From: Alphaproteobacteria bacterium | Lineage (GTDB): Bacteria > Pseudomonadota > Alphaproteobacteria > UBA2966 | Assembly (NCBI GenBank): GCA_030740435.1 | Contig: JASLXG010000198.1 | Coordinates: forward strand, 1 to 57,386 | Length of the DNA: 57,386 nucleotides | Reading direction: 5' to 3' | Part shown: piece after piece, positions 19,831 through 44,634 of the stretch | Layout of the letters: each line of letters opens with the position of its first letter | Position numbering within the stretch: the first letter of the stretch is position 1 | Program-made: the position numbers and the translations under genes | The notes under the pieces: model-generated | What the model was told of the DNA's origin: nothing | The model's database searches: none | Seen by the model: the letters and a program-made list of their open reading frames with translations, nothing else

Positions 19831-21180
19831 TCACAGACATAGCGGGATCTCTGCCCTCAGGGTGGCCACCATTTCGTCGAGATCGTCTTCAGCGGCGATC
19901 AGGGCCGGTGCCAGGATCGCCGTGTCGCCCGTCATGCGCAGCACCAGGCCGGCTTCCCAGCAGCGCTTGAGCAGCCTATGGCCGCGCTGGCCGGGCACTT
20001 GGCCGGGCGCCATCTCGACGGCTGCCAGCAGGCCATAGCCGCGGATGTCGCTGACCGCGTCCAGGTCCTGCAAGGCAAAGACGCGTTCGAGGAAACCGGC
20101 CGACAAGGCCTGGCCGCGGGCAAACAGGTCCTCGTCGCGGTAGAGATCGAGCGTCGCCAGCCCGGCCGCCGTGGCCGCCGGGTGGCCGGAATAGGTGTAG
20201 CCGTGGAAGAACTCCACGCTGCCCTCGGCGCCGGCCCCGATGATGGTTTCGTAGATCTCGTCCGCCAGCGCCACCGCTCCCATGGGTATGGTGCCGTTGG
20301 TCAGCGCCTTGGCCATGGTCATGAGGTCGGGGGTAACGCCGAAGGACTGGGCCCCGAAGGCCTCGCCGGTGCGCCCGAAGCCACAGATCACTTCGTCGAA
20401 AATGAGCAAGATGCCGTGGGCGTCGCAGATGGCGCGCAGCCGCTCGAGATAGCCCTCGGGCGGCACCAGCACACCGGTCGAACCGGCGATGGGCTCGACG
20501 ATGCAGGCGGCGATGGTGTCGCCGCCGTGGGTCGCCACCAAGCGTTCCAGGTCGTCGGCCAGGTCGCCGCCAAGCCGGGGCCGGCCGACCGAGAAGCGCT
20601 GTTCCGGGAGCCAGGTGTGGCGCATGTGGTGGACGCCGGCAAGGCCGGCCCCGAAGCTCTCGCGGTTCTTGACCATGCCGCCCACCGAAAGGCCGCCGAA
20701 GTTGACGCCGTGGTAGGCGCGCTCGCGGCCCACCAGGCGGAAGCGCTGGCCCTGGCCGCGGGCGCGCTGGTAGGCCAGTGCCAACTTGAGCGCCGTGTCG
20801 ACGGATTCGGAGCCTGAGTTGGTGAAGAAGACGTGGTTCAAGGGATCAGGCGTGAGATCGGCGAGGCGCCTCGCCAGTTCGAACGAACCGGGGTGGCCGA
20901 ACTGGAAGTGCGGCGTGTAGTCGAGCTCGGCAAGCTGGGCCGTCACGGCCTCGATGATGGGCCGGCGGCAGTGCCCGGCGGCATGGGTAAAGAGGCCGGA
21001 GCAGCCGTCCAGCAGCTTGTCGCCCCGAGGGTTCCAGTAATGCATGCCCTCGGCCCGCACCAACAGGCGGGGATCGGCCTTGAAGTCGCGGTTGGCCGTG
21101 AACGGCATGAAGAGGTGTTCGAGGCTGGCGTTGGTGGCCCCGCTGTTCTCGCCCGCAGATACCGCTGTCAGCTCGTTCAT
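19831..21180 (-). CDS. Class III aminotransferase, beta-alanine:pyruvate transaminase-like
   Basis: A PLP omega-transaminase of 449 aa from ATG 21180. The N-terminal LFMPFTANRDFKADPRLLV and NHVFFTNSGSESVDTALKLALAY regions closely follow beta-alanine:pyruvate transaminases. The PLP site is seen as IFDEVICGFGRTG and the Schiff-base lysine in MAKALTNGTIPMGAV. The open frame upstream of 21180 is a shadow. It is divergent from a MocR/PdxR-type regulator that probably controls it. A taurine:pyruvate transaminase role was considered because of Xsc in the window, but the sequence resembles the beta-alanine enzyme more. Confidence 0.85.
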   Translation of the reverse strand: MNELTAVSAGENSGATNASLEHLFMPFTANRDFKADPRLLVRAEGMHYWNPRGDKLLDGCSGLFTHAAGHCRRPIIEAVTAQLAELDYTPHFQFGHPGSFELARRLADLTPDPLNHVFFTNSGSESVDTALKLALAYQRARGQGQRFRLVGRERAYHGVNFGGLSVGGMVKNRESFGAGLAGVHHMRHTWLPEQRFSVGRPRLGGDLADDLERLVATHGGDTIAACIVEPIAGSTGVLVPPEGYLERLRAICDAHGILLIFDEVICGFGRTGEAFGAQSFGVTPDLMTMAKALTNGTIPMGAVALADEIYETIIGAGAEGSVEFFHGYTYSGHPAATAAGLATLDLYRDEDLFARGQALSAGFLERVFALQDLDAVSDIRGYGLLAAVEMAPGQVPGQRGHRLLKRCWEAGLVLRMTGDTAILAPALIAAEDDLDEMVATLRAEIPLCL

Positions 21181-21275
21181 GACGATGCCCCGCCCTTGTT
21201 GCCTCGGCCGACAAACGCTAGCCTCGCAGGCTGGAGCACCGATAGCGCCAGATAGGGGATTCCGACGGGGCCAGC
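21181..21275. promoter_or_regulatory. Divergent control region between the aminotransferase and its likely regulator
   Basis: Ninety-five bases separate the two divergent starts, so both promoters must lie here. An inverted repeat AGCCT-CGC-AGGCT (21220-21232) and two GATAG repeats (from 21241 and 21251) are visible. MocR-type regulators commonly bind repeated sites in such regions. I cannot assign -35/-10 boxes reliably. Confidence 0.4.
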
Positions 21276-22778
21276 ATGCGCCATTCGCTTTTCCACATCC
21301 GGCTGGTGCCGGGAAAAAGCATCCAGGCGCAGATCCGCGAGCGCCTGGTGGCCGACATTGTCGACGGCCGCTTGGTCGCCGGTACGGCGATGCCCTCTTC
21401 ACGCCGCCTGGCCGAAGCCCTTGGGGTGTCGCGCAACACCGTGGTGCTGGTCTATGAACACCTGGTCGACGACGGTTTCCTCACTTCGCGCCAGCGCTCT
21501 GGCTACTTCGTGGCCGAAGGCATCCAGGATGACCGTGCCCCCGGCACCAGCCATGGCCCCAGCCAAGCCCCCAGCCAAGCCCCCAGCCAACCCCACGACG
21601 GCCCCGACTGGGAACGGCGCTTTCGGGTCCGCCCGACGCGCCAGTCAAACGTCGAAAAGCCTTCGGCTTGGCAGGACTACGAGTTTCCTTTCGTCTACGG
21701 CCAGGTCGACCTCGATCTCTTTCCCATCGGTGCCTGGCGCGAGTGCACCCGCCAGGCGCTGGGGCGCAAGGAGATGGCCTGGTGGATGTCGGACAATTTC
21801 GCCGAGGACGACGAAGCGCTGGTCGAGCAGATCCGCGAGCGCTTGTTGCCGCGCCGCGGCATCTTCGTCAAATCGGATGAGATCCTGGTCACCCTGGGGG
21901 CCCAGAACGCGCTTTACCTAATCGCCAGCCTGCTGGTCACGCCGGATGCCACGGTCGGCTTCGAGGAGCCGGGCTATGCCGATGCGCGCAATATTTTCGG
22001 CCTCTGCACCCAGCATGTGGTGCCGCTGGCGGTCGATGCCGGCGGCCTGCCGGTGGATGAACGCCTGTCCGCCTGCCAATACCTCTACACCACGCCGAGC
22101 CACCAGTTGCCCACCGCCGTGACGCTGCCCATGGCGCGGCGCGAGGCGCTGCTGCAAGCCGCCGGCCGGCACCGTTTTCTGATTATCGAGGACGATTACG
22201 AGAGCGAGACCAATTTCGCCGAACGCCCCATGCCGGCACTCAAGTCGCTGGACGAGGCTGACCGCGTGCTTTACGTGGGCAGCTTGTCCAAGGTGCTGTT
22301 CCCCGGCCTCAGGCTGGGATTCCTGGTGGGCCCGCCCGAGTTCATCGCCGAGGCCCGGTCGCTCAGGCGCCTGATGCTGCGCCACCCGCCGACCCACATG
22401 CAGCGCACGGCGGCGCTCTTTATAGCACTAGGGCATTACGATTCGCTGATCCGGCGCCTGCACAAGAACTATCGCCAGCGCTGGCAGGTCATGCACCAGG
22501 CGCTCGAGCGCCACCTGCCGGAGACTTTGATCCCGGCCACCTTCGGGGGCTCGTGCTTCTGGCTCACCGGCCCGGCGCGGCTGGATGCCGACGAGTTGGC
22601 TGGCCGGGCACTGGCGCAGGGCATCATCATCGAGCCCGGCCGCGTCTTCTTCGCCGCTCCCGAACCACCTGCCAACCATTTTCGCCTGGGTTTCTCGTCC
22701 ATCCCCGAAGATCGCATCGAGCCCGGCATCGTCGGCCTGGCCGAACTCATGCGCGACCAGCTCCGCTCCGCCGCCTGA
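21276..22778 (+). CDS. MocR/PdxR-type GntR-family regulator with aminotransferase domain
   Basis: A 500-aa fusion. Residues ~10-80 form a winged helix-turn-helix of the GntR type (PSSRRLAEALGVSRNTVVLVYEHLVDDGFL). A Pro/Ser/Gln linker built of 4-residue repeats follows (from ~95). The rest is a class I aminotransferase fold with the PLP lysine in GSLSKVLFPGLRLGFLVG. Such proteins sense PLP and an amino compound. Being divergent from the class III transaminase, it most likely activates that gene and represses itself, as with PdxR, TauR and GabR. Confidence 0.88.
   Translation: MRHSLFHIRLVPGKSIQAQIRERLVADIVDGRLVAGTAMPSSRRLAEALGVSRNTVVLVYEHLVDDGFLTSRQRSGYFVAEGIQDDRAPGTSHGPSQAPSQAPSQPHDGPDWERRFRVRPTRQSNVEKPSAWQDYEFPFVYGQVDLDLFPIGAWRECTRQALGRKEMAWWMSDNFAEDDEALVEQIRERLLPRRGIFVKSDEILVTLGAQNALYLIASLLVTPDATVGFEEPGYADARNIFGLCTQHVVPLAVDAGGLPVDERLSACQYLYTTPSHQLPTAVTLPMARREALLQAAGRHRFLIIEDDYESETNFAERPMPALKSLDEADRVLYVGSLSKVLFPGLRLGFLVGPPEFIAEARSLRRLMLRHPPTHMQRTAALFIALGHYDSLIRRLHKNYRQRWQVMHQALERHLPETLIPATFGGSCFWLTGPARLDADELAGRALAQGIIIEPGRVFFAAPEPPANHFRLGFSSIPEDRIEPGIVGLAELMRDQLRSAA
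21558..21593 (+). repeat. Three 12-bp tandem repeats inside the MocR-type gene
   Basis: Three units CCCAGCCAAGCC, CCCAGCCAAGCC, CCCAGCCAACCC encode PSQA, PSQA and PSQP in the interdomain linker. The repeat could change copy number without breaking the frame and so vary linker length. Confidence 0.8.
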
Positions 22779-22788
22779 GAAATGCGGG

Positions 22789-25700
22789 TCAAAGGCTGAA
22801 ATAGCGGGCCTGCGGATGGTGCACGACGAAGGCGGACGTGGACTGCTCCGGGTGCATCTGGCCTTCCTCGCCGATGACTATTCCCAGCCGCTCGCCACCT
22901 AGCAAGTCGAGAAGCCGGCGCTGATCGGCAAGGTCGGGGCAGGCGGGAAAGCCGAACGAGTAGCGCGCGCCCCGATAGCCCTGGCGGAGAAGTTCCTCCG
23001 TCTCCGCGGCGTCCGCATCGGCGATACCGAGCTCTGTTCGGATAAGTTGGTGCACGTACTCGGCCAGGGCCTCCGTCATCTCGGCGGCGAGGCCGTTGAG
23101 ATATAGATAATTCTGATAGCGGTCGGCTTCGAACCATTGCTGCATCACCTGGCCCACCCGTTGGCCCATGGTCACCGCCTGAAGCGCGATGATGTCCCTC
23201 TGCCCGCTGTCGGCGGTGCGGAAGAAGTCGCTGATGCAAAGACCGTCCGCCCGTGCCTGCCTGGGGAAAGCGAAGCGCGTGGCCTCGGTTTCTGCGTCTT
23301 CCCCGAACAGCACCAGGTCATCGCCTTCGGCGGCGCAGCGCCAGAACCCATAGGCGGCCTTGGGCTGCAAAATGGCCTCATGCTCGCAGGTCTTGAGCAG
23401 ATGCTGCAGGATCGGCCGGGCTTCCTTGAAAGCCCACTCCCGCCACTGCTCGGCCGAACGGTCGCTTGATTTGAAGCCCCAATGGAAGCGAAACAGCACC
23501 GCTTCGTCGAGCAACGGCACCAGGGTCCGCGGCGCTATCTCCTCGATCACACGGCTGCCCAGAAAGGGCGGCTCGGGCACCTTCACCTGGGCCTGCAATT
23601 CGGCCCGGCGCAGGCGGATTTCCTCGAGGTCCACGGGCCGCGCCTGCTTCGCCGGCGCCGGCCGGGACGGCCTCTCGGGCTGTGCCTCGCGGACCTCCGT
23701 CAGGTGATCATCGAATTCATCCTCGACCACCATGTCCATGAAGCGCAGGCCGTCGAATACGTCGCGGGCGTAGACCACGCGCCGGCACTCGTAGGCCTCG
23801 GCGCAGTCCTCGTCGACAAACCGCCGGTTCAACGCCGCCCCGCCGACCAGCACCGGCAGATCCATGGCCTGGCGGGTCATTTCCTTGAGATTCTCCCGCA
23901 TCACCAGCGCCGAAGCGAGCAGCAACCCCGACATGCCGATGGCGTCGGCACCATGTTCGTCGGCGGCTTGGATGATGGCATCGATGGTTTGCTTGGAGCC
24001 CAGGTTGACGACCCGGTAGCCGTTGTTGCTGAGCAGGACATCGACCAGGTTCTTGCCGATATCGTGGACGTCGCCCTTTACCGTGGCCAGCACGATGCAT
24101 CCCTTGCCGACATTGCTGGCCCTGTCCATGAAGGGTTCGAGACAGTTCACGGCGGCTTTCATGGTTTCCGCCGACTGCAATACGTAGGGCAGCGGCAACT
24201 TGCCTTCGCCGTAGAGGTTGCCGACCGACTTCATGCCGTCGAGCAGGACATTGTTGATGATGTCGAGCGGCGTCCGGTCCTCCAAGGCCTCGGCGAGATC
24301 GTCGTCGAGGCCCGGGCGGTCGCCCTCGATGATGCGTCGTTTCAGCCTTTCCGCCACCTCGGCAGGAGGCTCGGCGCTGTCGCCGCCGCCCACCGCGCGC
24401 CCGGCAAAGCGGGCGGCGAACGCGGCCACATCCGGGGCGGCGGCGAATATGAGCTCGCGGGCCGCCCGCGCGTCGTCCGCCTCCAGTTGCAACACGGGCA
24501 GGGTGCCTGCGCTGTCGACGATGGCCGCGCTCAGGCCGCGTTCCGCCGCCTCGTGCAAAAACACCGATTCCAGCACCTGCCGGGCCGCCGCTTCGAGGCC
24601 GGCCGAGACGGCGCCGATTTCCAGCACCACCTGGCAGTCGGGCAACTCGCCGCGAATGGCCGCCACCGCCGCCAGGGTCTCGGGGCAATCGCCATCGCCC
24701 ACGGGCGCGGCCACCGGGTCGATGAGAAGATCGGCCGCCGCCAGGCCGTGAACGCCGCAGGCCAGGTCATGGAGCTCCCGGGCCAGGCCGAGCCTGTCCC
24801 CGGCGCTCGGCGCCGGGCCCTGTTGGTCGCTGGTGCGGGCGATGACGGCACTACCGAAGCGGCGGGCGAGCCGCAGGCGCTCGGCGGCCGTTTCCTGGCC
24901 CCCGGCGAGATCGATGGCCTTGATCACCGCCTTGCCGCCATAGAGTTTGAGGGCCGTTTCCAGGACCTCGGCATCCTCGGAAGCGACGACCAGCGGCGCC
25001 GCCACCGCCGTCCGCAGGTGGTCCACCAGGGCTGCCATGGCGCCGGCCTCGTCGGCGCCGGCGAAAGCGGTGCCGACCTCCAGGGCCTGGCTGCCGGCGC
25101 GCTCCTGGCGCCGCGCCAGGGCGACGCAGGAGTCCCAGTCGGCGGCCTCCTGGGAGGCGCGAAAAGCTTCCGAACGGGCGGCGTTGCACTGTCCGCCGAT
25201 GGCCAGGACGCCGTCATCGCGCCCCAGCGGCAGCCGCGAATAGAGCGAGGCCAGGGCGGCCACGGGATAGATCCGGCGGCGCACGGCGGCCGGCCGATGG
25301 CTGCCACGGGGTGCGCGCCGGCGCAGCATGGCGTCCAGCGCCGCCAGGTGGCCGTCGCCGGTGCCGCAGCAGCCGCCGACGAAGGTGACCCCGTCGCGTT
25401 CGATGAAGCGCTCCATCCAGGTCGCCAGCTCCGCCGCTTCCAGCGGATAATGGGTGCGGCCCTCGACCAGTTGGGGCAAGCCGGCGTTGGGCTGGACGCC
25501 GATCAGTCCGGGCCAGTTTTGCCCCAGCCATTCGACGTGCGGCGCCATCTCCTGGGGCCCGGTGGCGCAATTGAGACCCATCATCGGCACGTCGAGGGCC
25601 GCCGCCGTCGTGGCCATGGCGGCGATGTCGCTACCCACCAGCATGGTTCCATTGGTCTCGACGGTGACCTGCAGCAGGATGGGGAGATCCTTGCCGGCCT

Positions 25701-26235
25701 CCGCCAGCGCCCGCTTGGCGCCGTTGACGGCGGCCTTGACCTGCAGGGGGTCCTGGCAGGTGATGATCAGGATGGCGTCGACGCCGCTGGCCATGTGGCC
25801 GGCGCACTGCAGGACGTAACCCTGCTCCATGGTGTCGTAGTCGATATGTCCCAGGCTGGGCAGTTTGCTGCCCGGACCGATATCGCCGAGCACGAAACGC
25901 GCCCGCCCGTCACCACGGAAGGCCTCGACCGCCTCGCGGGCCAGCTCGCCGGCCTCCTTGTTGAGGGAAAAGGTCTCCTCGGCCAAGCCGAACTCGCCCA
26001 GCGTCACCGGATTGGCGCCGAAGGTGTTGGTCTGGATCATGTCGGAACCGGCTTCCAGGAAGCCCATGTGGATGCCGCGGATGACGTCGGGGCGGTAGCG
26101 GGTGAGGATGTCGGTGCAGTTCTCAAAGCCCCCGAAATCCTTTTCCGCATCCAGATTGAGCGGCATGACGCTGGTCCCCATGCCGCCGTCACAGAGCAGA
26201 ACCCTGTCCGCCAGGATATCGAGCAGATGCGGCAT
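22789..26235 (-). CDS. metH: Cobalamin-dependent methionine synthase-like protein with a degenerate pterin domain
   Basis: A 1148-aa protein with full MetH layout from ATG 26235. Residues 1-310 are the homocysteine S-methyltransferase domain with all three zinc cysteines (C223 in MGLNCATGP, C289/C290 in GGCCGTG). Residues ~320-600 are a pterin-barrel relative. Residues ~620-780 bind B12, with the cobalt-ligand His724 in GDVHDIG. The C-terminus is the AdoMet reactivation domain (GYRGARYSFGFPACPD). The oddity is the pterin barrel: normal GERTN, LDxxxDY, DST, NSxN, IDEEG and SNxSFGL motifs read GGQCN, LEVGTAF, ASED, KAID, SDQQG and GAVSAGL. Normal methyl-tetrahydrofolate binding is doubtful, so the gene name describes homology, not proven function. 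Confidence 0.85.
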   Translation of the reverse strand: MPHLLDILADRVLLCDGGMGTSVMPLNLDAEKDFGGFENCTDILTRYRPDVIRGIHMGFLEAGSDMIQTNTFGANPVTLGEFGLAEETFSLNKEAGELAREAVEAFRGDGRARFVLGDIGPGSKLPSLGHIDYDTMEQGYVLQCAGHMASGVDAILIITCQDPLQVKAAVNGAKRALAEAGKDLPILLQVTVETNGTMLVGSDIAAMATTAAALDVPMMGLNCATGPQEMAPHVEWLGQNWPGLIGVQPNAGLPQLVEGRTHYPLEAAELATWMERFIERDGVTFVGGCCGTGDGHLAALDAMLRRRAPRGSHRPAAVRRRIYPVAALASLYSRLPLGRDDGVLAIGGQCNAARSEAFRASQEAADWDSCVALARRQERAGSQALEVGTAFAGADEAGAMAALVDHLRTAVAAPLVVASEDAEVLETALKLYGGKAVIKAIDLAGGQETAAERLRLARRFGSAVIARTSDQQGPAPSAGDRLGLARELHDLACGVHGLAAADLLIDPVAAPVGDGDCPETLAAVAAIRGELPDCQVVLEIGAVSAGLEAAARQVLESVFLHEAAERGLSAAIVDSAGTLPVLQLEADDARAARELIFAAAPDVAAFAARFAGRAVGGGDSAEPPAEVAERLKRRIIEGDRPGLDDDLAEALEDRTPLDIINNVLLDGMKSVGNLYGEGKLPLPYVLQSAETMKAAVNCLEPFMDRASNVGKGCIVLATVKGDVHDIGKNLVDVLLSNNGYRVVNLGSKQTIDAIIQAADEHGADAIGMSGLLLASALVMRENLKEMTRQAMDLPVLVGGAALNRRFVDEDCAEAYECRRVVYARDVFDGLRFMDMVVEDEFDDHLTEVREAQPERPSRPAPAKQARPVDLEEIRLRRAELQAQVKVPEPPFLGSRVIEEIAPRTLVPLLDEAVLFRFHWGFKSSDRSAEQWREWAFKEARPILQHLLKTCEHEAILQPKAAYGFWRCAAEGDDLVLFGEDAETEATRFAFPRQARADGLCISDFFRTADSGQRDIIALQAVTMGQRVGQVMQQWFEADRYQNYLYLNGLAAEMTEALAEYVHQLIRTELGIADADAAETEELLRQGYRGARYSFGFPACPDLADQRRLLDLLGGERLGIVIGEEGQMHPEQSTSAFVVHHPQARYFSL

Positions 26236-26351: not shown

Positions 26352-27563
26352 ATGACGGACGCTGCCAGCCAGGGACCACTAAGCGGCCGTCGGGTTGTGG
26401 AACTGGGATCGACCGTGGCGGCGCCCTTTTGTGGGCGCCTGCTGGCCGATTTCGGAGCCGAGGTCATCAAGGTGGAACCCATCGACGGTGATCCGCTGCG
26501 CTCCATGGGCCGGCAACACCAGGGAAAATCCCTCTACGCCGCCAACATCTTTCGCAACAAGCGGCTGATATCGGTGGATCTGAGAACCCCTGACGGTCAG
26601 GAGATCGTGCGCAAATTGGCCGCCGCCTGCGACATCCTGATCGAGAATTTCCGCCCCGGCAGGCTGGAGGAGTGGGGCCTGGGCTATGACGAGCTCTCCG
26701 CCCTCAACCCCGGTATCATAATGGTCCGCATCTCGGGCTACGGCCAGACCGGTCCGTATCGTACGCGCCTGGGCTACGGCGTCACCGCCGAGGCGGTCAG
26801 CGGTCTCAGGGAAATCACCGGCGATCCGGACCGGCCGCCGCCGCGCATCGCGATTTCCCTGACCGACGACATCACCGGGCTTTACGGCGCGCTGGGTGCC
26901 ATGATGGCGCTTTTGCATCGCCAGCAGACGGGCCAGGGACAGGTCATCGACGCGGCGCTTTACGAAGGCGCCTTCAGTTTCATGGAGCCCCACATCCCGG
27001 CTTATTCAATGCTGGGTGAGGTGGCGAAAAGGGCCGGCTCGGCGCTACCGAACCATTCGCCCAACAACCTCTACCCGACGTCGGCCGGCGGCTATATCCA
27101 TATTGCCGCCGCCAATCAGGGGACTTTCCGGCGCCTGGCCAAGCTCATGGGATCCCCGGCCCTGGTCGAGGACCCGCGCTTCGCCACCGGCATCGAGCGC
27201 GGGCGCAACGCTGACGAGTTGGATGCCATCGTCGCCGCCTGGACGGCTGACAAGGATCTCATGGAGTTGGAGAAGCAACTGGTCGAGGCCGAAATCCCGG
27301 CCGCCCGCATCTACTCCGTTGCGGACATCTTCGAGGACCCCCATTTCCGCGCCCGCGACATGCTGCTCGAGATGCCGGACGCGGATTTCGGCCAGGTGAC
27401 GCTGCCCGGCATCGTTCCCAAGCTCTCGCAAACACCGGGAGGGGTGCGCTGGACGGGACGGCGGATCGGCGAGGACACGCGTGCCGTGCTGGCTGAGATT
27501 GCCGGAATGTCGCAAGACGAGATCTCAAGCCTGGAAACGGCGGGGGTTATTTTCTGCGGCTAG
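26352..27563 (+). CDS. CaiB/BaiF family CoA-transferase
   Basis: A 403-aa family III CoA-transferase. It opens with LSGRRVVELGSTVAAPFCGRLLADFGAEVIKVE, the standard start of the family, and has NKRLISVDLRTPDGQEIVRKL. The catalytic aspartate is expected in SLTDDITGLYGALGAM near residue 176. These enzymes move CoA between carboxylic acids. GGGGAAGG precedes the ATG. It is divergent from the MetH-like gene (116 bases) and convergent with the biotin carboxylase; the two stop codons share the palindrome CTAG at 27560-27563. The donor and acceptor are unknown. Confidence 0.88.
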   Translation: MTDAASQGPLSGRRVVELGSTVAAPFCGRLLADFGAEVIKVEPIDGDPLRSMGRQHQGKSLYAANIFRNKRLISVDLRTPDGQEIVRKLAAACDILIENFRPGRLEEWGLGYDELSALNPGIIMVRISGYGQTGPYRTRLGYGVTAEAVSGLREITGDPDRPPPRIAISLTDDITGLYGALGAMMALLHRQQTGQGQVIDAALYEGAFSFMEPHIPAYSMLGEVAKRAGSALPNHSPNNLYPTSAGGYIHIAAANQGTFRRLAKLMGSPALVEDPRFATGIERGRNADELDAIVAAWTADKDLMELEKQLVEAEIPAARIYSVADIFEDPHFRARDMLLEMPDADFGQVTLPGIVPKLSQTPGGVRWTGRRIGEDTRAVLAEIAGMSQDEISSLETAGVIFCG

Positions 27564-28921
27564 CGGGAATCGAGCCACGTCGTGTGGATGCGGCTGGCGA
27601 GGAAGTCGGGGTGCTCCAGGATCCAGCGGTGGAAGGGGATGGTGGTGTGGACGCCGTCGACGCCGAAACCGGCCAGGGCGGTCGCCGCCCGGGCCACGGC
27701 GTCATCGCGGTCGTGGCCGTGGACGACGAGCTTGCCGAGCAGGGAATCGTAATAGGGTGGGATCGAATAGCCCTCGAAGACATGGGAATCGAGGCGAACG
27801 CCTGAGCCGGCCGGTGGCCGCCAGCGCTCCAAACGGCCCAACGAGGGCATGAAACCGTTGGCTGGATCCTCGGCGTTGAGGCGGAATTCGATGGCGTGCC
27901 CGGCGATTTTCGGCCGGTCCTGGGCGAACGAGAGCGCCTCGCCGCCGGCGACCCGCAATTGTTCGGCCACCAAATCGAGGCCGGTTACCATCTCGGTGAC
28001 CGGATGTTCCACCTGAATGCGGGTGTTCATTTCGATGAAGAAAAATTCCCGGCTGTCTGTGTCGTAGATGAACTCGACGGTACCGGCGCCGACATAGCCG
28101 ATCTCCCGGGTCAGCGCCTCGGCGGCCTCGCACATGCTGGTTCGGATGGCCTCGTCGAGCACCGGCGAGGGGGCCTCCTCGAGCAGTTTCTGATGGCGGC
28201 GCTGTAGGCTGCAGTCGCGCTCCCAGAGATGCCGGGCGTTGCCCTGGGAATCGCCGAAGACCTGGACCTCGATATGGCGGACGGTGGGAAAGTAACGTTC
28301 GAGATAGATGCCACCGTCGCCAAAGGCAGACGCCGCCTCGCCGCTGGCTTGCGCGAACAAGGCCTCGAAGGGGTCGCTTTCGCCGACGATCCGCATACCC
28401 CGCCCGCCGCCGCCCGAGCGCGCCTTTAAAAGCAAGGGGAAACCGATATCCGCCGCCGCCTTGGCCGCCTCGCGGCCGTCGCTGAAGGCCTCGCCTGAGC
28501 CGGGAGGCACCTTCAATCCGTAGCGCTCCGCCGTTTGGCGCGCCGCCACCTTGTCGCCCATCAGGGCGATGGTATCGGCCGAGGGACCGATGAAGGTCAG
28601 ACCTGCATCGGCGCAGCGGCTGGCGAACTCGGCATTCTCGGCCAGGAAGCCGTAGCCCGGATGCAGGCCGTCGCAGTCGCGAGAGCGGGCCACGTGCAAT
28701 AGCGCAGCGCTGTTGAGATAACTCTCCGAGCTCGGTGGCGGGCCGATGCAAACGGCGCTGTCGGCCGCCCAGACATGCGCCGAGCCTGCATCCGCCGTTG
28801 AATGCACCGCCACCGTCTCGATATTGGCCTGGCGGCAGGCGCGCACGATGCGCAGCGCGATCTCGCCCCGGTTGGCCACCAGGATCCGTTGCAGTCCTGG
28901 CTTTTTGCGCCCTGCCGCCAC
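27560..28921 (-). CDS. Biotin carboxylase subunit (AccC/PycA-like)
   Basis: A 453-aa ATP-grasp biotin carboxylase. It starts RILVANRGEIALRIVRACR, has the ATP loop KARSGGGGRGMRIV, ERYFPTVRHIEVQV, and FIEMNTRIQVEHPVTEMVTG with metal- and biotin-site residues. It carboxylates biotin on a carrier protein using ATP and bicarbonate. The start is GTG, 7 bases from the CoA-transferase B stop. It is the last gene of the 12-gene operon whose carrier and carboxyltransferase lie three to four genes upstream. It could serve a pyruvate-type or another acceptor rather than acetyl-CoA, because no AccA/AccD or PccB-type carboxyltransferase is present. Confidence 0.88.
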   Translation of the reverse strand: MAAGRKKPGLQRILVANRGEIALRIVRACRQANIETVAVHSTADAGSAHVWAADSAVCIGPPPSSESYLNSAALLHVARSRDCDGLHPGYGFLAENAEFASRCADAGLTFIGPSADTIALMGDKVAARQTAERYGLKVPPGSGEAFSDGREAAKAAADIGFPLLLKARSGGGGRGMRIVGESDPFEALFAQASGEAASAFGDGGIYLERYFPTVRHIEVQVFGDSQGNARHLWERDCSLQRRHQKLLEEAPSPVLDEAIRTSMCEAAEALTREIGYVGAGTVEFIYDTDSREFFFIEMNTRIQVEHPVTEMVTGLDLVAEQLRVAGGEALSFAQDRPKIAGHAIEFRLNAEDPANGFMPSLGRLERWRPPAGSGVRLDSHVFEGYSIPPYYDSLLGKLVVHGHDRDDAVARAATALAGFGVDGVHTTIPFHRWILEHPDFLASRIHTTWLDSR

Positions 28922-28927
28922 CTAGGT

Positions 28928-29614
28928 TCAGAGCTCCGGGCAACAGAGCGGCGCGCAGTCGGCAGCACGTTGCAGCGGCGCCCCGGTGCGGGCCTGCAGG
29001 GCCCCGAGATCCATGCCGTCGAGCATCTCGCGCACCACCAGCCCGTCGTCGCCCACATCGATTAGCGCCAGATCGGTGAAGATGCGCTTGACCACGCCCG
29101 GCCCGGTCAGCGGCAAGGTGCATTGGTCGAGGATGCGGGGCTGTCCGTCGGGGTCACTGTGCGACATCAGCACCCAGATGTTGCGCGCCCCGGCGGTCAG
29201 GTCCATGGCGCCGCCCACGCCCGGCGGCTGGCTGTTGTCTTCGAGGCTCCAATTGGCGATATCGCCATGCCGCGATACCTGGTAGGCGCCCAGCAGCCCG
29301 TAGTCCAGATGGCCGCCGCGGATCATGTCGAAGGCCTCGGCCTGGTTGAAGATGGCGGCCCCGGCAAGCAGGGTGACCGGTTGCTTGCCGGCATTTATGA
29401 GGTCCCAGTCCTCCTCCCCCTCGGGCGGTCGCGGCCCCATGCCCAGGAGGCCGTTTTCGGTGTGGTAGAGCACTTCTTTGTCGGCCGGCATGTGGTTGGC
29501 TACCAAGGTCGGCAGGCCGATTCCCAGGTTGACGTAGCTGCCGTCCGGAATCTCCCGGGCCGCCCGCCAGGCGATCTGATCGCGGCTCAGGGGCTGGCTT
29601 CGGAGCCCACTCAT
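28928..29614 (-). CDS. 3-oxoacid CoA-transferase, subunit B
   Basis: A 228-aa family I CoA-transferase beta subunit of the PcaJ/ScoB/AtoA type. The catalytic glutamate is visible in HTENGLLGMG, and VNLGIGLPTLVANHM and PPGVGGAMDLTAGARN are family motifs. I chose ATG 29614, which overlaps the alpha-subunit stop (ATGA); the open frame extending upstream is a shadow. The pair would move CoA from succinyl-CoA or acetyl-CoA to a carboxylic acid. Confidence 0.9.
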   Translation of the reverse strand: MSGLRSQPLSRDQIAWRAAREIPDGSYVNLGIGLPTLVANHMPADKEVLYHTENGLLGMGPRPPEGEEDWDLINAGKQPVTLLAGAAIFNQAEAFDMIRGGHLDYGLLGAYQVSRHGDIANWSLEDNSQPPGVGGAMDLTAGARNIWVLMSHSDPDGQPRILDQCTLPLTGPGVVKRIFTDLALIDVGDDGLVVREMLDGMDLGALQARTGAPLQRAADCAPLCCPEL

Positions 29615-30282
29615 CGGCGCTCTCCCGTAGGCACCACGCGGTCGACGTAGATGCCTGGTGTCACCACCTGTTGGGGTTCGATCTCCCCCAACTCGACGAT
29701 CTCGCGAACCTCGGCGATGCAGAGGTCGCCGGCCGCCGCCATCATGGGATTGAAATTCCGCGCCGTGTGACGATAGGTGAGATTTCCCCAGCGGTCTGCG
29801 CGGTCGGCCCGGATCAGGGACACGTCGGCCCGCAGGCCATATTCGAGGACGCACTCGACGCCGTCGAAGGTGCGAATCTCCTTGCCTTCCGCGAGCCGCG
29901 TGCCGATGCCGGTGGGCGTGTAGAAGGCGGCGATGCCGGCACCGCCGGCCCGGATGCGCTCAGACAGCGTGCCCTGGGGGACCAGCTCGAGCTCGATCTT
30001 TCCCTGGCGGTAGAGATCGGCGAAGACCACCGATCCCGCCGTCCGCGGAAAGGTGCAGATGACGCGGCGCACCCGCCCCTTGGCCATCAGGGCGGCCAGG
30101 TCCTGCTCGCCGCTGCCGGCGTTGTTGGCGATGACGGTGAGGCCGCTGGCCCCCTGTTCGACCAGGGCGTCGACCAGGTTGACCGGATTGCCGGCGGTGC
30201 CGAAGCCGCCGATCATTACGCTTGCGCCATCGCCGATGTCGGCAACGGATTCGGCAATGGATGCCATCCTCTTGTCGATCAT
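29611..30282 (-). CDS. 3-oxoacid CoA-transferase, subunit A
   Basis: A 223-aa alpha subunit of the PcaI/ScoA/AtoD type. GDGASVMIGGFGTAGNP near the start and FYTPTGIGTRLAEGKE in the middle are family landmarks. It pairs with the following beta subunit. Together with the CaiB/BaiF gene nearby, the locus carries two unrelated CoA-transferases, so acids are likely handled as CoA esters. The real substrate is not readable. Confidence 0.9.
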   Translation of the reverse strand: MIDKRMASIAESVADIGDGASVMIGGFGTAGNPVNLVDALVEQGASGLTVIANNAGSGEQDLAALMAKGRVRRVICTFPRTAGSVVFADLYRQGKIELELVPQGTLSERIRAGGAGIAAFYTPTGIGTRLAEGKEIRTFDGVECVLEYGLRADVSLIRADRADRWGNLTYRHTARNFNPMMAAAGDLCIAEVREIVELGEIEPQQVVTPGIYVDRVVPTGERR

Positions 30283-30302
30283 GGGCCCGGCCTATCCCGG
30301 CG

Positions 30303-31757
30303 CTATTTCCACAGCTCGATCTTCAGCGCGCCCTTTTCGATGGAGACGTGGGGCAGCGTGGAGGTCGAGGCGATTTCGCGGATCAATTGGAGATCCGGCG
30401 ATTCGCCAGGGGCGTGGTCAGGACCTTCCGCCGCCGCCGCAACGATCTCGTCGACCAGGTTGTCCGGGAAGGCCTGGCGCAACAACAGCTCGTCCTCGCC
30501 GGCGGCGGGGTAGCGCCGGCGCAGCCCTGGCAGTGTGGCCTCGGGCTCTCCACCATAGGGCAGGATGGTCTTGGCGCCGTTTTCCATGATGCGGTCCAGC
30601 ACCTCGGGCGCCACCGGTGCCAGCAGCTTGCCGTAATGCCCCAGCGCATATTTCTTGACCTCGTCGGGAATTCGTTTGTAGCGCTCCCCCTCGATGACGT
30701 TGAGGGCGGCCTGGACGCCGATGAACTGGGAGAACGGCGTGACCTGGATGGGCCAGCCCAGTTCCTCGCGCACCCGGGTGCTTTCGCTCAGCACCTCGTC
30801 GACCTTGTCTCCCAGCCCGGCCGCCTCGAGCTGGGCCACCAGGTTGCTCAGCACCCCACCCGGCACCTGATGGCCGAAGTTGGAGGCGTCGAAATCCTGG
30901 GGCCGGCCCAGCGGCTTGTCCTCGGCCAGGGCGATGGCCTCGAAATGCCGGCTGACCTCGTCGATCAGGCCGTCGTCCAGGTCAACATCGTAACCGAGAT
31001 AACGCAGGTTGCGCGCCGTGGTCTGGACCGACGGTGGGGCGTTGCCGTCGGCGATGGGCGAGATGCAGGTGTAGAGGTGGTCGACGCCCTGCTTCACGGC
31101 CTCGATCTGGGTGCGCTGGGCCAGGCCCACCAGGTTGTGCACGTGAAGGCCCAGCGAGACCTCGCCGATTTCCCGCTTCAGCGCCGGCACTAGGGTGGCG
31201 GCGCGCTCGGAGGTCAAAATTCCGCTGGTGTCCTCGATCATCAGCGCATCCACCTGGCAACGATCGAGGAACTCGCGGGCCTTCTCGACGTAAAGCTCGT
31301 CGGTGTGGATGGGGCTATCGCTGAAGATCAGCCAGCCCGTGGTGTGGGCGCCCAGCTTCTTGGCGTGCAACAGGCTGTCGACCAGGTTGTCGAGATCGTG
31401 CAAGCCGTCGAAGGCGATGAAGCGGTCGATGCCGTTGGCCATCAAGCGCTCGACCCAGAGGCAGGCGATGTCGGTGGGTTGCAGCTCGAACGAGAGCGCG
31501 CATTTGCTGCGGATCAGGGCCTGCAAGGGGGTTTTGGTCATGCGTTGCTTGAGCGCACGCAGGCGGGCCCAGGGGTCTTCGGCGAGGAATCGCACGCAGG
31601 TATCGAACTGCACCGCGCCCATGACCTCGATCACATCGAAGCCGGAGCGGTCCATCTTTTCCGCCACCGGCAACATCATGGGCGTCGACATGCGGGTCGC
31701 CCACAGGCACTGATGGCCGTCGCGCAAGGTGGTGTCGACGATCTTCACTGCCGGCAT
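30303..31757 (-). CDS. Carboxyltransferase-domain protein (OadA/PycB-like) with altered active site
   Basis: A 484-aa TIM-barrel carboxyltransferase related to pyruvate carboxylase/oxaloacetate decarboxylase. It opens KIVDTTLRDGHQCLWATRM, keeps FDTCVRFLAEDPWARLRALK, the metal histidines H205 and H207 in GLHVHN, and VPGGVLSNLVAQL. However, the normally invariant lysine of the IKDMAG motif is glutamate here (IEDTSG, E175). The pyruvate-site RGxN reads RSKC, and NDxRN reads HDLDN. It sits next to the biotin carrier, so it still seems part of a biotin system, but the acceptor or even the reaction is probably not pyruvate carboxylation. Confidence 0.75.
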   Translation of the reverse strand: MPAVKIVDTTLRDGHQCLWATRMSTPMMLPVAEKMDRSGFDVIEVMGAVQFDTCVRFLAEDPWARLRALKQRMTKTPLQALIRSKCALSFELQPTDIACLWVERLMANGIDRFIAFDGLHDLDNLVDSLLHAKKLGAHTTGWLIFSDSPIHTDELYVEKAREFLDRCQVDALMIEDTSGILTSERAATLVPALKREIGEVSLGLHVHNLVGLAQRTQIEAVKQGVDHLYTCISPIADGNAPPSVQTTARNLRYLGYDVDLDDGLIDEVSRHFEAIALAEDKPLGRPQDFDASNFGHQVPGGVLSNLVAQLEAAGLGDKVDEVLSESTRVREELGWPIQVTPFSQFIGVQAALNVIEGERYKRIPDEVKKYALGHYGKLLAPVAPEVLDRIMENGAKTILPYGGEPEATLPGLRRRYPAAGEDELLLRQAFPDNLVDEIVAAAAEGPDHAPGESPDLQLIREIASTSTLPHVSIEKGALKIELWK

Positions 31758-32218
31758 CAGTCGGGCTCGATCAGGATCAGCGGCTGGTCGTAGGCCACCA
31801 GGGCGCCGTTCTCGACCAGGATTTCCTTGACCGTCCCCGAGACCCCGGCGGCGATCGAATTGAAGAGCTTCATGATCTCGATCAGGCAGACGGTGTCATC
31901 GGCCGCCACCCTGTCGCCGACCTCGCAGAACGGCGGCTCCTGGGGCGCGGGCGCGCGGAAGACGGTCCCCACCATGGGCGCGGAAACCACGAATAGGCCC
32001 TCGGGAACCGCCACGGGCGGTACTTCGACCTGAGCCGCCGGGCTCGCCGGGCTCGCCGGGCTCGCCGGGTTCGCCGGGGGGGCGCCGGCCAGCGGTGCCA
32101 GGGGGCGGTTTTTGCTGGCCCTGATGCGCAGGTCATCGAACTGGATATCGACTTCTTCGTAGGCCGATTCCTCGACGATCTCGAGGATGCGTTTGATGTC
32201 GCTGATGGTTGTCGGCAT
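31757..32218 (-). CDS. Biotin carboxyl carrier protein (AccB-like)
   Basis: A 153-aa carrier from ATG 32218. The biotin lysine lies in CLIEIMKLFNSIAAG near residue 115 (classic EAMKM is EIMKL here). An N-terminal AccB-type helical segment (ISDIKRILEIVEES) is followed by a Pro/Ala/Ser linker encoded by 9-bp tandem repeats. It carries carboxybiotin between the biotin carboxylase and the carboxyltransferase gene, whose start overlaps its stop by one base (TGATG). Confidence 0.9.
   Translation of the reverse strand: MPTTISDIKRILEIVEESAYEEVDIQFDDLRIRASKNRPLAPLAGAPPANPASPASPASPAAQVEVPPVAVPEGLFVVSAPMVGTVFRAPAPQEPPFCEVGDRVAADDTVCLIEIMKLFNSIAAGVSGTVKEILVENGALVAYDQPLILIEPD
32040..32075 (-). repeat. 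Four 9-bp tandem repeats in the biotin carrier linker
   Basis: GGGCTCGCC occurs three times perfectly (32040-32066) and once as GGGTTCGCC (32067-32075). On the coding strand these give the Pro-Ala-Ser/Asn linker. Copy-number change would only alter linker length. Confidence 0.8.
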
Positions 32219-32276
32219 GTCAGGGCGGCCCCGGTGGGTACTAGTCACCGCGAGTGTACATGGTTTTGTTCGGCAT

Positions 32277-33125
32277 CTACTTTTCGAGTTTCATGTCCGA
32301 ATCGGTCAAGAGGAATTCCTGGGCCATAATCAGTTCCATCAGGTGTTCAGCCAGCTCGATCTGCGCCGATTTCGCGCCCGCGCCCTGGGCCGCTGAAAAT
32401 TGCCCTTGCCACCAACCGAAGAGGCTGGCGAGCATGGCCTGGTCGAGAACCGGAACCGCCAGCGCCACGCTGTTGCACAAGTCGCCATTGCCGCCGAGCA
32501 GGGCGGAATCCATGTCGAACATCTCGGCCGTGAGGGAGAGCGACGGCCGTTCGGGCGAGGACCGCGTGCCGCGGCTGATCACCGTGCCCTGGGCCTTGTT
32601 GAGCAGCACCCTGCTGCCGGCCCGGATGGTGCCGAAAAGCGCCACCGACCCGGAAGCGGGGAGAGGGGAATCGTAAACGTACATTCTGGCGAATTGAAGC
32701 TGCCCTATGGTGAATTCGGATCGGTAGGTGTCTCCTTCCACGGACAGGCATTCCACCTCGATTTTCTTCCCCTCGATCAATTCGAGCAGCAAGTCGGAAC
32801 CGCTGAATGTCGATTCCGGGTCCTTGCTTTCCTGGTCGGCGAAGACCAGCGTATCGACCAGGCCCAGGCGTTCGTTGGGGGCCGGGCCGGGAAAGCCCTG
32901 GATGCCGTTGAGCCAGATCTTTTCCGCCCGCGTGAACACCCCCCGTTCCGCCACCGGCACCACCAGCATGGCCGACGAGCCGGAGATCGGCGCCTGGTAG
33001 GCAATGGTGACGACGTCGACGTCTTGGGATGTGTTCCGGCCCAGCTCCGCCGCCGTCACCACCTTGGCCTGGCCGGCCTCGATGCGGGCGTTGATCAGGG
33101 CGATGTCCTTGCCGCCGGCCGGCAT
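32277..33125 (-). CDS. COG1900/DUF39 paralogue without ferredoxin domain
   Basis: A 282-aa protein clearly homologous to the larger COG1900 protein at 34468-35793. Shared features are DVDVVT near residue 36, the ISGSSAMLVVPVA/MSGTSAMLVIPVA segment, WLNG, KIEVECL with C126, and a matching C-terminal tail (FLLTDSDMKLE / FLLNDSSLEMKH). It lacks the cysteine-rich ferredoxin insert and the RNDYQNY region of its partner. COG1900 proteins in methanogens take part in sulfur transfer to aldehydes. Being paired, the two may form a heterodimer with one electron-carrying and one plain subunit. The start overlaps the previous stop by one base. Confidence 0.7.
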   Translation of the reverse strand: MPAGGKDIALINARIEAGQAKVVTAAELGRNTSQDVDVVTIAYQAPISGSSAMLVVPVAERGVFTRAEKIWLNGIQGFPGPAPNERLGLVDTLVFADQESKDPESTFSGSDLLLELIEGKKIEVECLSVEGDTYRSEFTIGQLQFARMYVYDSPLPASGSVALFGTIRAGSRVLLNKAQGTVISRGTRSSPERPSLSLTAEMFDMDSALLGGNGDLCNSVALAVPVLDQAMLASLFGWWQGQFSAAQGAGAKSAQIELAEHLMELIMAQEFLLTDSDMKLEK

Positions 33126-34462: not shown

Positions 34463-34467
34463 CGCTC

Positions 34468-35793
34468 TCAGAGGTTCCAGTGTTTCATTTCCAGGGAAGA
34501 ATCGTTGAGCAGGAAAGCGCCTTCATCCATCAGCTCCTTGAGGTACTCGGTGAGGATCTGGGCGCGCCGGCGGTTGGACTGGCGGAACAGCACCGGAATC
34601 CGGCGCCCGAAGGCCGGGATGTCGCCGATGCTTCCCTGGGGCACCTGCCCCTTGCCGGTAAACGCCCCGCCCAGGCAGTTGGCCGTACAGGCACCGCAGG
34701 CGACGCACAGGCTCTGGTCGATTTCCTTCTGGCGCCACGAGATCGCTCCCATGGGGCAGTAATATTCGGCCGGGCACTGGAAGGCGCAATGGATGCAGCG
34801 CTCGGCCAGGAACTCGACCTCCAGGGGGGCGCCTTGCCAGAGATCGGCGTAGGTGGCGTTGACCAGCGGGATGCGATCGCCGATGTCGGCGATCTTGAGG
34901 GCGATGTTCTCGTCCAGGCACCACGACAGGTCGGCGATGACCTCGGCATCGGTGATGGGAAAGGGCACGGCGATGCCGTTGGTCACCTCGACCCCGAAGC
35001 TGGTCTTGAAACCGCCCATGAACTCCGGATCCATGCCGAACATGTCGGCCGCCAGCGAGATCGCCCGCATTCCCGGAGTGCTGCGCGTGCCATAGCCGAT
35101 CAGGGTTCCCGGCACCTTGTTGACGAGGATTTTCATGCCCGCCTTGAGGACCTTGGCACGGCGGTCGTTTTCCAGGGGATTGAGCTCGCCGCTGCCGCTC
35201 GCCGTCATGCCCTTGAGCCGCGGCATCGGCCGGCAGGCGAATATCGACTTCGGATTTTGGCGATACGAGGGATGGTCGTTGACGTTGGCGAAGGCCGTGT
35301 AGTTCTGGTAGTCGTTACGGAAATTGTAGAGGCGGGCGAAATCGAGATCCTCGATGGTGAACGATGTCAGGATCGTCCGGTCGTCCGTGGTCAGGCATTC
35401 GACCTCGATTTCCCGGCCCTCGACGATGTCGCGCAAAAGGTGGCCGCCGCCGTAGCGGCCCGGATAGTCGACGCTCTCCTCGGTGCCGAAAATCACCGTA
35501 TCGACTTTGCCCGTGCCTTCGGCGGGGTGGGAGCCGGGAAAACAGGGGACGCCGTTCAGCCACATCCGCTGGGCTCGGGCGAACGCGCCCGCGGCGGCCA
35601 CCGGGATGACCAGCATGGCCGAGGTTCCCGACATGATGGCGCGGGTGGCGGTGGTCACCACGTCGACGTCCGAGACCTTGAACTTGTAGCCGTTCCTGAC
35701 CTCCTTCTTGAATTCGCTGGCCGTCATGACGACGGCATCGCCGCGCCTCAGCTTGGCGTTGATCTCGGCGATGGTCTTGGTTTGGGAAGACAT
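34468..35793 (-). CDS. COG1900/DUF39 protein fused to a ferredoxin domain
   Basis: A 441-aa protein. Residues 1-325 match the COG1900 family (homocysteine biosynthesis/aspartate-semialdehyde sulfurtransferase group): VDVVTTATRAIMSGTSA, YGGGHLLRDIVEGREIEVECL, NFRNDYQNYTAFAN, and GTLIGYGTRSTPG. Residues 333-373 hold two 4Fe-4S motifs (C333, C336, C340, C346 and C363, C366, C369, C373). In methanogens, COG1900 works with a separate NIL/ferredoxin protein; here the ferredoxin is built in. The cysteines I recall as conserved in methanogen members (in GPMCSSGA and GTDCYP contexts) are not at those places, but C133 in IEVECL is shared with the second paralogue. Function is therefore by homology only. 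Confidence 0.72.
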   Translation of the reverse strand: MSSQTKTIAEINAKLRRGDAVVMTASEFKKEVRNGYKFKVSDVDVVTTATRAIMSGTSAMLVIPVAAAGAFARAQRMWLNGVPCFPGSHPAEGTGKVDTVIFGTEESVDYPGRYGGGHLLRDIVEGREIEVECLTTDDRTILTSFTIEDLDFARLYNFRNDYQNYTAFANVNDHPSYRQNPKSIFACRPMPRLKGMTASGSGELNPLENDRRAKVLKAGMKILVNKVPGTLIGYGTRSTPGMRAISLAADMFGMDPEFMGGFKTSFGVEVTNGIAVPFPITDAEVIADLSWCLDENIALKIADIGDRIPLVNATYADLWQGAPLEVEFLAERCIHCAFQCPAEYYCPMGAISWRQKEIDQSLCVACGACTANCLGGAFTGKGQVPQGSIGDIPAFGRRIPVLFRQSNRRRAQILTEYLKELMDEGAFLLNDSSLEMKHWNL

Positions 35794-35805
35794 CAGTGCG
35801 CTCGC

Positions 35806-36567
35806 TCAACCGGCCAGCTCGATTTGGCCCCAGGCCGCCAGCTTTCCGCCGGCCACGATGACGACGCCGTCAACGCCGATCTGCCGAGCCCGGGCGACGC
35901 CGACGGCAAGATCGGCCGGCCCTTGGACGACGTTGGCGACGGCGGTGGCGGCGGCATCGGCCAGCGCCGCCGAGGGCGCCACCGCCATCACCGCGTCGGC
36001 CCGGCCAAAACTCAGCGAGGGGCCCGTGGTTCCCGACGAGGTGCCTATGCCAAGGGCCTCGGGTGATGGCGGCAGGGCGATGCGCATGCCCTCGAATTCC
36101 GAGTCCTCGGCCAGCAGCAGCATCTGCCTCGGGGCCAGGGAGCGGACGAAGATATCCCCACCGTTCTCGACGATGACGTCACGGCTCCGAGGCCCGAGCT
36201 CGCGGCCGACGAATTCGGCGATGGCCCCGGCCACGGCCGCCATCGGTCCGACGCCGGCCTGGGCACCGGCGGCGATCATGGCGCCGACGATGTCAGGCGC
36301 CGCCGCATCGCGCTCCAGGGGAACCAGGGCCCTGGCGAAATTCGGATGGCCGGCGATGTATTGCTCGATTCGCGCCCGGTAGCGCCGCACCAGGGTGTCG
36401 GCGCGCTGGTCCAGATCGACCATCGCCGAGACCAGGATATCCGTCTCCTTGACCCGCACCCGGGCCGCCACCAGATCGCCCGAGGCCACGGCCTGGCGAT
36501 AGGCCGCGGCGCCCAGGGAGGTGGGCGGGAAGCGCCCATCAGCGCTCGAAGGGCTTGATCTCGACAT
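35806..36567 (-). CDS. UPF0280/COG2122 family protein (ApbE-like)
   Basis: A 253-aa UPF0280 protein. Diagnostic stretches are VRVKETDILVSA, IEQYIAGHPNFARALVPLE, AGVGPMAAVAGAIAEFVG and VIVENGGDIFVRS, plus the later SGTTGPSLSFGRADAV. The fold is related to the FAD-dependent flavin transferase ApbE. In Methanosarcina a COG2122 protein was needed, with COG1900 and a ferredoxin, for homocysteine formation from sulfide. Its presence with two COG1900 genes strongly suggests the same type of chemistry. Its start overlaps the ferredoxin gene by 29 bases; a shorter start is possible because the first ~15 residues look poorly conserved. Confidence 0.8.
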   Translation of the reverse strand: MSRSSPSSADGRFPPTSLGAAAYRQAVASGDLVAARVRVKETDILVSAMVDLDQRADTLVRRYRARIEQYIAGHPNFARALVPLERDAAAPDIVGAMIAAGAQAGVGPMAAVAGAIAEFVGRELGPRSRDVIVENGGDIFVRSLAPRQMLLLAEDSEFEGMRIALPPSPEALGIGTSSGTTGPSLSFGRADAVMAVAPSAALADAAATAVANVVQGPADLAVGVARARQIGVDGVVIVAGGKLAAWGQIELAG

Positions 36568-40748: not shown

Positions 40749-40763
40749 GCACTATGGCGGAAA

Positions 40764-41440: not shown

Positions 41441-41451
41441 GGGGGCGGATC

Positions 41452-42747: not shown

Positions 42748-42864
42748 GGAACGCGGGCTAGCCCGTCTTGGACCGGCCAATTGGGGCCAACTGGTTCTAA
42801 CGGCCGGGCTCTCCCGGGGCCACCGTTGGGCTACACTCGTTGCCCCCACCCCAGGAGAAATCCC

Positions 42865-44634
42865 ATGACCCGGATGACGACCGAGGAAGCCTTCGTGAAA
42901 GTCTTGCAGATGCATGGCATCGAGCATGCGTTCGGCATCATCGGCTCGGCCTTCATGCCGATTTCCGATCTCTTCCCCAAGGCCGGCATCAAATTCTGGG
43001 ACGTGGCGCACGAGACCAACGGCGGCATGATCTGTGACGGCTACACCCGTGCCAGCGGCAAGATCGCCATGGCCATCGCCCAGAACGGGCCCGGCATCAC
43101 CAACTTCGTGACGCCCATCAAGACCGCCTACTGGAACCACACGCCGATGCTGCTGGTGACGCCCCAGGCCGCCAACAAGACCATCGGCCAGGGCGGCTTT
43201 CAGGAAGTCGAGCAGATGGCCGTCTTCAAGGACATGGTCTGCTACCAGGAAGAGGTGCGCGATGCCTCGCGCATGGCGGAGGTTCTCAACCGGGTGATCG
43301 AGAAGGCATTGCGGGGCTCGGCCCCGGCCCAGATCAACGTGCCGCGTGATCTCTGGACCCAGGAGATCGACATCGAGCTGCCCCAGATCGTGCGCATCGA
43401 ACGCCCGGCCGGCGGGGCCGCGGCTCTGGCCCAGGCGGCACAGCTGTTGTCGGACGCCAAGTTCCCGGTGATTCTGTCAGGTGCCGGCGTGGTTCTCGGC
43501 GATGCTATCCCGGCCTGCCAGGCTTTGGCCGAGAGGCTGGATGCACCGGTGGCCAGCGGCTACCAGCATAACGACAGCTTCCCCGGCAGCCACCCCCTGG
43601 CGGTCGGCCCGCTGGGCTACAACGGCTCCCGCGCGGCCATGGAACTGATCGCCAAGGCCGACGTGGTCCTGGCCCTGGGCACCAGGCTCAATCCCTTCTC
43701 GACGCTGCCCTGCTATGGCCTGGACTACTGGCCCACCGAGGCCAGCATCATCCAGGTCGACATCAATTCCGACCGCATCGGCCTGACCAAGAAAGTAAGC
43801 GTAGGCATTTGCGGCGACGCCAAACTGGTGGCCGAGCAGTTGTTGGCGGGCCTCGCACCGAGCGCCGGCGACAAGGGGCGCGAGGAACGCCAGGCGCTCA
43901 TCCATCAGAGCAAATCGGCCTGGCTGCAGACACTGAGCTCCATGGACCACGAGGACGACGATCCCGGCACCACCTGGAACGCCGATGCCCGCGAGCGCGA
44001 TGCCGACCTGATGTCGTCCCGCCAGGCCTGGCGTGCCATCCAGGCCGGCCTTCCCGAAAACGCCATCATCTCCAGCGACATCGGCAACAACTGCGCCATC
44101 GGCAATGCATATCCCACGTTCGAGGAAGGGCGGAAATACCTTCCGCCCGGCCTCTTCGGGCCCTGTGGCTATGGTTTCCCGGCCATCCTGGGGGCCAAGA
44201 TCGGCTGCCCCGAGGTGCCCGTGGTGGGCTTCGCCGGCGACGGCGCCTTCGGAATCTCGATGAACGAAATGACCTCGTGCGGGCGCGACGATTGGCCGGC
44301 CGTCACCATGGTGGTGTTCCGCAACTACCAATGGGGGGCCGAGAAGCGCAACTCGATCCTCTGGTACGACAACAATTTCGTCGGCACCGAGCTCAATCTC
44401 GACGTGAGCTACGCCAAGATCGCCGAGGCCTGTGGCCTGAAAGGGGTGCAGGTGACGACGTCAGGCGATCTCACGGCGGCGCTGCAAGAGGCCTGCATGG
44501 CGCAACAGGGCGGCACGACGACCTTTATCGAGGTCCTGCTCAACCAGGAACTCGGCGAGCCCTTCCGCCGCGACGCCATGAAGGCGCCGGTGGTGGTGGC
44601 CGGCATCGATGCGGGCGACATGCGGCCGCAATGA
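42865..44634 (+). CDS. xsc: Sulfoacetaldehyde acetyltransferase
   Basis: A 589-aa ThDP enzyme. It converts sulfoacetaldehyde and phosphate into acetyl phosphate and sulfite, the desulfonating step for taurine, isethionate, sulfoacetate and related C2 sulfonates. The N-terminus [37 protein letters not shown] and [19 protein letters not shown] are near-identical to known Xsc as I recall them. The ThDP motif is [12 protein letters not shown]...[17 protein letters not shown] sits 8 bases before ATG 42865. No phosphotransacetylase, sulfite exporter or sulfite dehydrogenase is in the window. It follows the TRAP genes, suggesting sulfonate uptake. Confidence 0.92.

Follow-up and report, generated by a model that had tools for sequence, protein, structure and literature searches.

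A diverged MetH paralogue near a bacterial marker-16 gene cluster may be a retooled zinc/B12 thiol methyltransferase

The gene at positions 22789-26235 of the window (the whole 57,386-nucleotide stretch analyzed here) encodes a MetH paralogue. Its alignment with other MetHs shows substitutions of the methyl-tetrahydrofolate (methyl-THF) residues, of a glutamate that contacts homocysteine and of the tyrosine used in reactivation, with the zinc cysteines and the B12 loop preserved. MetH is a textbook case of a single B12 served by three separate sites. We consider it highly probable that the paralogue has lost the use of methyl-THF, and we propose with moderate confidence that it is a retooled zinc/B12 thiol methyltransferase that no longer transfers methyl groups from methyl-THF to homocysteine. 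Taken together, the losses at these sites and the presence of a rare coenzyme-M-type gene cluster nearby suggest that the sulfur compound which the paralogue methylates or demethylates is probably a different one.

Gene structure and a second MetH in the genome

The gene and the segments that encode its domains are arranged as follows.

22789..26235, reverse strand: diverged MetH paralogue, 1148 aa, ATG at 26235
25327..26199, reverse strand: homocysteine-type zinc barrel, aa 13-303; zinc Cys 223, 289 and 290 kept; E158I
24436..25209, reverse strand: pterin barrel, aa 343-600; ligand motifs lost; 6-aa deletion after residue 519
23731..24357, reverse strand: cap and B12-binding domains, aa 627-835; DxHxxG with H724, and S775, kept; Q681P, K774A, T776A
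22792..23580, reverse strand: AdoMet reactivation domain, aa 886-1147; Y1096F

The 1148 codons form one open frame without a stop or frameshift, and GC3 ranges from 0.77 to 0.91 along its whole length, which is what coding DNA of a GC-rich genome should show. All MetH domains were detected by Pfam (S-methyl_trans, aa 13-303; Pterin_bind, aa 348-574, 50.6 bits; B12 cap; B12-binding; Met_synt_B12) and follow the Hcy-Fol-Cap-Cob-Act order of MetH; the original prediction had the frame, coordinates, strand and domain order right. The score against the NCBIfam metH model TIGR02082 (EC 2.1.1.13) is 991.4 bits, under the equivalog cut-off of 1010.85. The AlphaFold2 model has a mean pLDDT of 91.2, shows both barrels in complete form and is matched best in the PDB by Thermus MetH (TM 0.94); canonical homologues served as the alignment for this run, and the model leans on them. 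Both barrels are thus predicted to keep their fold, in agreement with the retained barrel pattern that had been proposed from the sequence.

The genome (4.5 Mb) is 98.6% complete with 3.1% contamination. Contamination as the source of the window was rejected, as its tetranucleotide profile correlates at 0.97-0.99 with the other contigs of the genome. The second, normal metH that the original prediction had suggested looking for is present: contig C74 encodes a full-length MetH that is 54% identical to the paralogue and has canonical motifs (GERCN, LDLCTAY, VIDSTE, INSINF, TIDESG and GVSNVSFGL). Upstream of it lie metF and a gene for an ArsR-type regulator-methyltransferase, both named from sequence without a family search. 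Because an ordinary metH with metF occurs in the same genome, the gene at 22789-26235 is a paralogue and not the sole methionine synthase, and transfer of methyl groups from methyl-THF to homocysteine would be left to the C74 enzyme. The genome also encodes a BhmT-like protein (C96), a stand-alone methyl-THF:corrinoid-type barrel (C38) and six MttB-family methyltransferases. In one of these MttB-family genes (G000:C35:15138-16546) the coding sequence is broken, through a frameshift or an assembly error, into two segments whose frames differ.

Residue changes at the three substrate sites

The paralogue was aligned with 40 full-length MetHs of Alphaproteobacteria plus one from a cyanobacterium. 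Relative to the 40 alphaproteobacterial sequences, the pterin barrel departs at 40 of its 100 near-invariant positions and the other domains at 40 of 284 (14%); in a leave-one-out control no canonical alphaproteobacterial MetH exceeded 5% barrel change. With p-values that assume independent columns, the difference holds for deep-invariant columns (23/60 in the barrel vs 25/199 elsewhere, Fisher p=3.6e-5), and within the barrel the losses fall on polar rather than non-polar invariants (29/47 vs 11/53, p=3.8e-5) and on strand ends of the catalytic face rather than other locations (24/42 vs 16/58, p=0.004), with the core residues kept.

All the barrel motif changes listed in the original prediction were found: GGQCN for GERTN, LEVGTAF for LDxxVDY, VVASED for (M/I)xDSTE, IKAIDL for VNSxN, TSDQQG for TIDEEG and LEIGAVSAGL for LGxSNxSFGL. 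Not all of the pterin contacts have gone: D506 and D470 are retained. The changes D418A, N439K, K/R356E, N542A, F545A and E348G/R349Q occur together. Position N542 aligns with Asn199 of MeTr, and the Asn199Ala mutant of that enzyme is reportedly severely impaired in catalysis; its structure has been solved (2ogy). In human MTR, methyl-THF is contacted by Asn470, Asp537 and Asn579 plus Arg384 (PMC13376404). Mapped by motif and spacing, with the human sequence outside the alignment, the first three correspond to K439, D506 (kept) and A542 in the paralogue, and Arg384, with less certainty, to E356. An enzyme that is still a methyl-THF-dependent MetH and binds folate through an altered residue set would fit the conserved fold and the two retained aspartates, but the combined loss of so many contacts, including the asparagine equivalent to MeTr Asn199, makes such an enzyme very improbable.

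The zinc barrel and the B12 domain present a mixed picture. C223, C289, C290 and D16 are kept, as are D722, H724 and G727 of the B12 loop (DxHxxG) and S775, which agrees with the original description of normal zinc cysteines and a normal B12 His724. The claim that both domains are intact is only partly right. E158, the equivalent of the homocysteine-contact residue Glu159 of BHMT, is replaced by isoleucine; it is glutamate in 40/40 canonical MetHs and in the cyanobacterial MetH (L054), that is, in all 41 aligned. Among 10 more distant homologue loci, two of which overlap, 9 have glutamate. In BHMT, E159 is part of the lining of the substrate site, and mutating it depletes activity (PMC9713302). 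The homocysteine barrel is further changed by Q24M, S75N, T195N and E255Q, and the cap and B12 domains carry F675Y and F684Y in addition to Q681P, K774A and T776A.

These observations bear on the reading originally put forward, in which the paralogue is a folate-independent methionine synthase with homocysteine still the acceptor and with its B12 methylated by another corrinoid methyltransferase. The conserved zinc cysteines, D16 and B12 loop would suit such an enzyme, the six MttB-family proteins and the stand-alone methyl-THF:corrinoid-type methyltransferase make methyl-corrinoid donors plausible, and core methionine synthases fed by methyl-corrinoid proteins are known, although of another fold (PMC7857596). 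The acceptor is the weaker part of that reading: with E158I, a homocysteine contact that almost every homologue retains is gone, and the normal MetH would make the role redundant. There is good support for the loss of methyl-THF use; a folate-independent methionine synthase we regard as unlikely.

The AdoMet domain is present, as predicted, but is not fully normal. Position 1096 is tyrosine in 40/40 MetHs and phenylalanine in the paralogue; by alignment offset it matches Tyr1132 of Thermus MetH, and the E. coli equivalent is Tyr1139. This tyrosine has been described as universally conserved, and in the E. coli Tyr1139Phe variant the Co(II)/Co(I) potential is lowered to a level at which reactivation would not be supported (PMC10567725). 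With the Act domain and its R1091 retained, AdoMet could in principle be the stoichiometric methyl donor of an AdoMet:thiol methyltransferase; because Y1096F is the substitution reported to disfavor the Co(II) reduction that this would require, we give that possibility very little weight. As a set, the lost residues argue against a methyl-THF donor, ordinary homocysteine recognition and ordinary AdoMet reactivation, and the conserved zinc thiolate and B12 sites support a reaction in which B12 and a thiol exchange methyl groups.

Divergence, distribution and the marker-16 neighborhood

The branch of the paralogue is about nine times the average length within the barrel (1.115 vs a mean of 0.123) and about three times outside it (0.498 vs 0.169), and its nearest relative is unstable between domains. 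No close match turned up among roughly 700 sampled genomes. Only canonical or distant MetHs were found in the same family (7 genomes) and order (15), among the best-scoring hits, whose motifs were read, in a class sample (385) and in the order of the nearest non-barrel relative (297), and in one contig scan (4 loci) and plasmids. Genomes of the same family show no synteny with 13.5-32.5 kb of the window, only scattered homologues. Among the sampled genomes searched, the variant is known from one example in one genome.

The main rival explanation is decay: the gene would be a redundant copy that is turning into a pseudogene and whose product has little activity, if any. The long branches and the missing orthologues in the related genomes sampled are consistent with decay, and three impaired sites, the reactivation tyrosine among them, could equally mean the same. 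Decay is at odds, however, with the uninterrupted frame and its coding-like GC3 throughout, with a barrel that has kept its core residues and lost polar ones, and with zinc ligands and a B12 loop that are all conserved. We judge decay to be possible but on balance improbable. The proposal of a retooled paralogue draws further on the genes around it.

21276..22778, forward strand: MocR-like regulator, convergent with the MetH paralogue
26352..27563, forward strand: CoA-transferase family III (CaiB), divergent from the MetH paralogue across a 116-base gap
27560-39174, reverse strand: tightly spaced run of about 11 genes beyond CaiB
32277-33125, reverse strand: second, shorter COG1900 protein without ferredoxin insert; start uncertain
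34468..35793, reverse strand: methanogenesis marker 16/COG1900 protein with inserted ferredoxin; TIGR03287 377.9 bits, cut-off 363.95
35806..36567, reverse strand: COG2122 (UPF0280-type) protein; PRK04334 models, below their cut-offs
39387-44634, forward strand: TRAP transporter genes, then xsc
42781..44634, forward strand: sulfoacetaldehyde acetyltransferase Xsc; TIGR03457 944 bits, cut-off 676

The MocR-like regulator is divergent from an omega-aminotransferase (AptA-type), and this pair (19831-22778) adjoins a dipeptide-type ABC transporter and an MlrC-like protein.

The run at 27560-39174 encodes a MoCo oxidoreductase, an Fe-S protein, the COG2122 protein, the marker-16 protein and a CCG-type Fe-S protein; it also holds the second COG1900 protein, a biotin carboxylase/carboxyltransferase set and 3-oxoacid CoA-transferase subunits. 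The marker-16 operon lies about 8 kb from the paralogue, which is outside this transcription unit, with CaiB between them. Xsc is divergent to the operon, and its arrangement with the TRAP transporter genes suggests sulfonate uptake and breakdown.

Besides scoring above the TIGR03287 cut-off, the marker-16 protein has a ferredoxin inserted in its COG1900 domain and a CxxCxxC cluster at 363-373. The shorter COG1900 protein is 48% identical to the marker-16 protein over its N-terminal part. Marker 16 was found above cut-off in one of the 385 class genomes sampled, and matches to the protein in one of 398 phylum genomes; in both cases the genome was this one. In Methanosarcina the methanogenesis marker 16 protein is a coenzyme M synthase (PMC12068725), and by analogy the protein in the window is a putative coenzyme M synthase-type enzyme that would form coenzyme M from sulfoacetaldehyde. 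The original prediction took the nearby COG1900 gene to point to homocysteine; the match to marker 16 and the position of Xsc do not bear this out. Relatives of COG1900 and COG2122 also serve homocysteine formation in Desulfovibrio (PMC5764234), so any substrate assignment here is tentative. ComA is absent, and there is thus no sign of PEP-based coenzyme M synthesis.

Proposed reaction and relation to known methyltransferases

We propose that the paralogue would transfer methyl groups between the B12 that it carries and a thiol activated by zinc, with no requirement for an alpha-amino group on the thiol; a thiol without one would not need E158. The pterin barrel may be only a scaffold or may bind a different ligand. 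As the methyl source we envisage a separate methyl-corrinoid system, the six MttB-family systems being possible suppliers, or a methylated substrate. Because the marker-16/COG2122/Xsc cassette lies so near, a coenzyme M-type sulfonate thiol is the leading candidate partner, although as a substrate it is speculative. In its fullest form, the proposal is that a non-methanogenic bacterium has turned MetH into a single-chain zinc/B12 enzyme for methylating or demethylating a sulfonate thiol, either coenzyme M or one like it, and encodes a marker-16 coenzyme M synthase next to it; this form we regard as doubtful. Retooling in general is favored by the canonical MetH with metF elsewhere in the genome, by a barrel loss specific to polar and catalytic-face positions and by the intact frame; the single example, the lack of co-transcription with marker 16 and the absence of ComA count against it.

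The closest known system is the short alphaproteobacterial MetH (TIGR02082), which the paralogue resembles in domain order, identity (about 54%), zinc cysteine triad, DxHxxG motif and predicted fold, and from which it differs in the pterin contacts, the homocysteine glutamate, the reactivation tyrosine and its sub-cut-off score. Betaine-homocysteine methyltransferase and MmuM (PF02574) have a zinc barrel homologous to its first domain, but they lack B12 and keep Glu159. With the core methionine synthases MesA-D the paralogue shares the idea of folate-free thiol methylation from a methyl-corrinoid; those enzymes are MetE-type single-barrel proteins without a B12 or activation domain of their own and keep their homocysteine residues (PMC7857596), whereas the Pfam and fold matches of the paralogue are to MetH/BHMT and not to a MetE-type single catalytic barrel. 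The soluble coenzyme M methyltransferases and fused corrinoid proteins (MtaA/MtbA, MtsA, MtsDFH) resemble it in the proposed chemistry, a zinc-activated thiol and a methyl-corrinoid. They belong to the UroD superfamily, the fold of which is unrelated, and we claim no membership for the paralogue: it has no Pfam UroD match, and its best fold matches are MetH barrels. Type 1 mlp clusters were considered as a parallel and rejected as to family, as mlp proteins are also of the UroD superfamily.

If the proposal is true, a natural paralogue with zinc and B12 sites kept and all three substrate sites changed would show how the modular MetH can be repurposed, and would point to an undescribed methyl-sulfur reaction in sulfonate-handling bacteria. 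The marker-16/Xsc neighborhood provides a concrete, testable substrate hypothesis for the paralogue.
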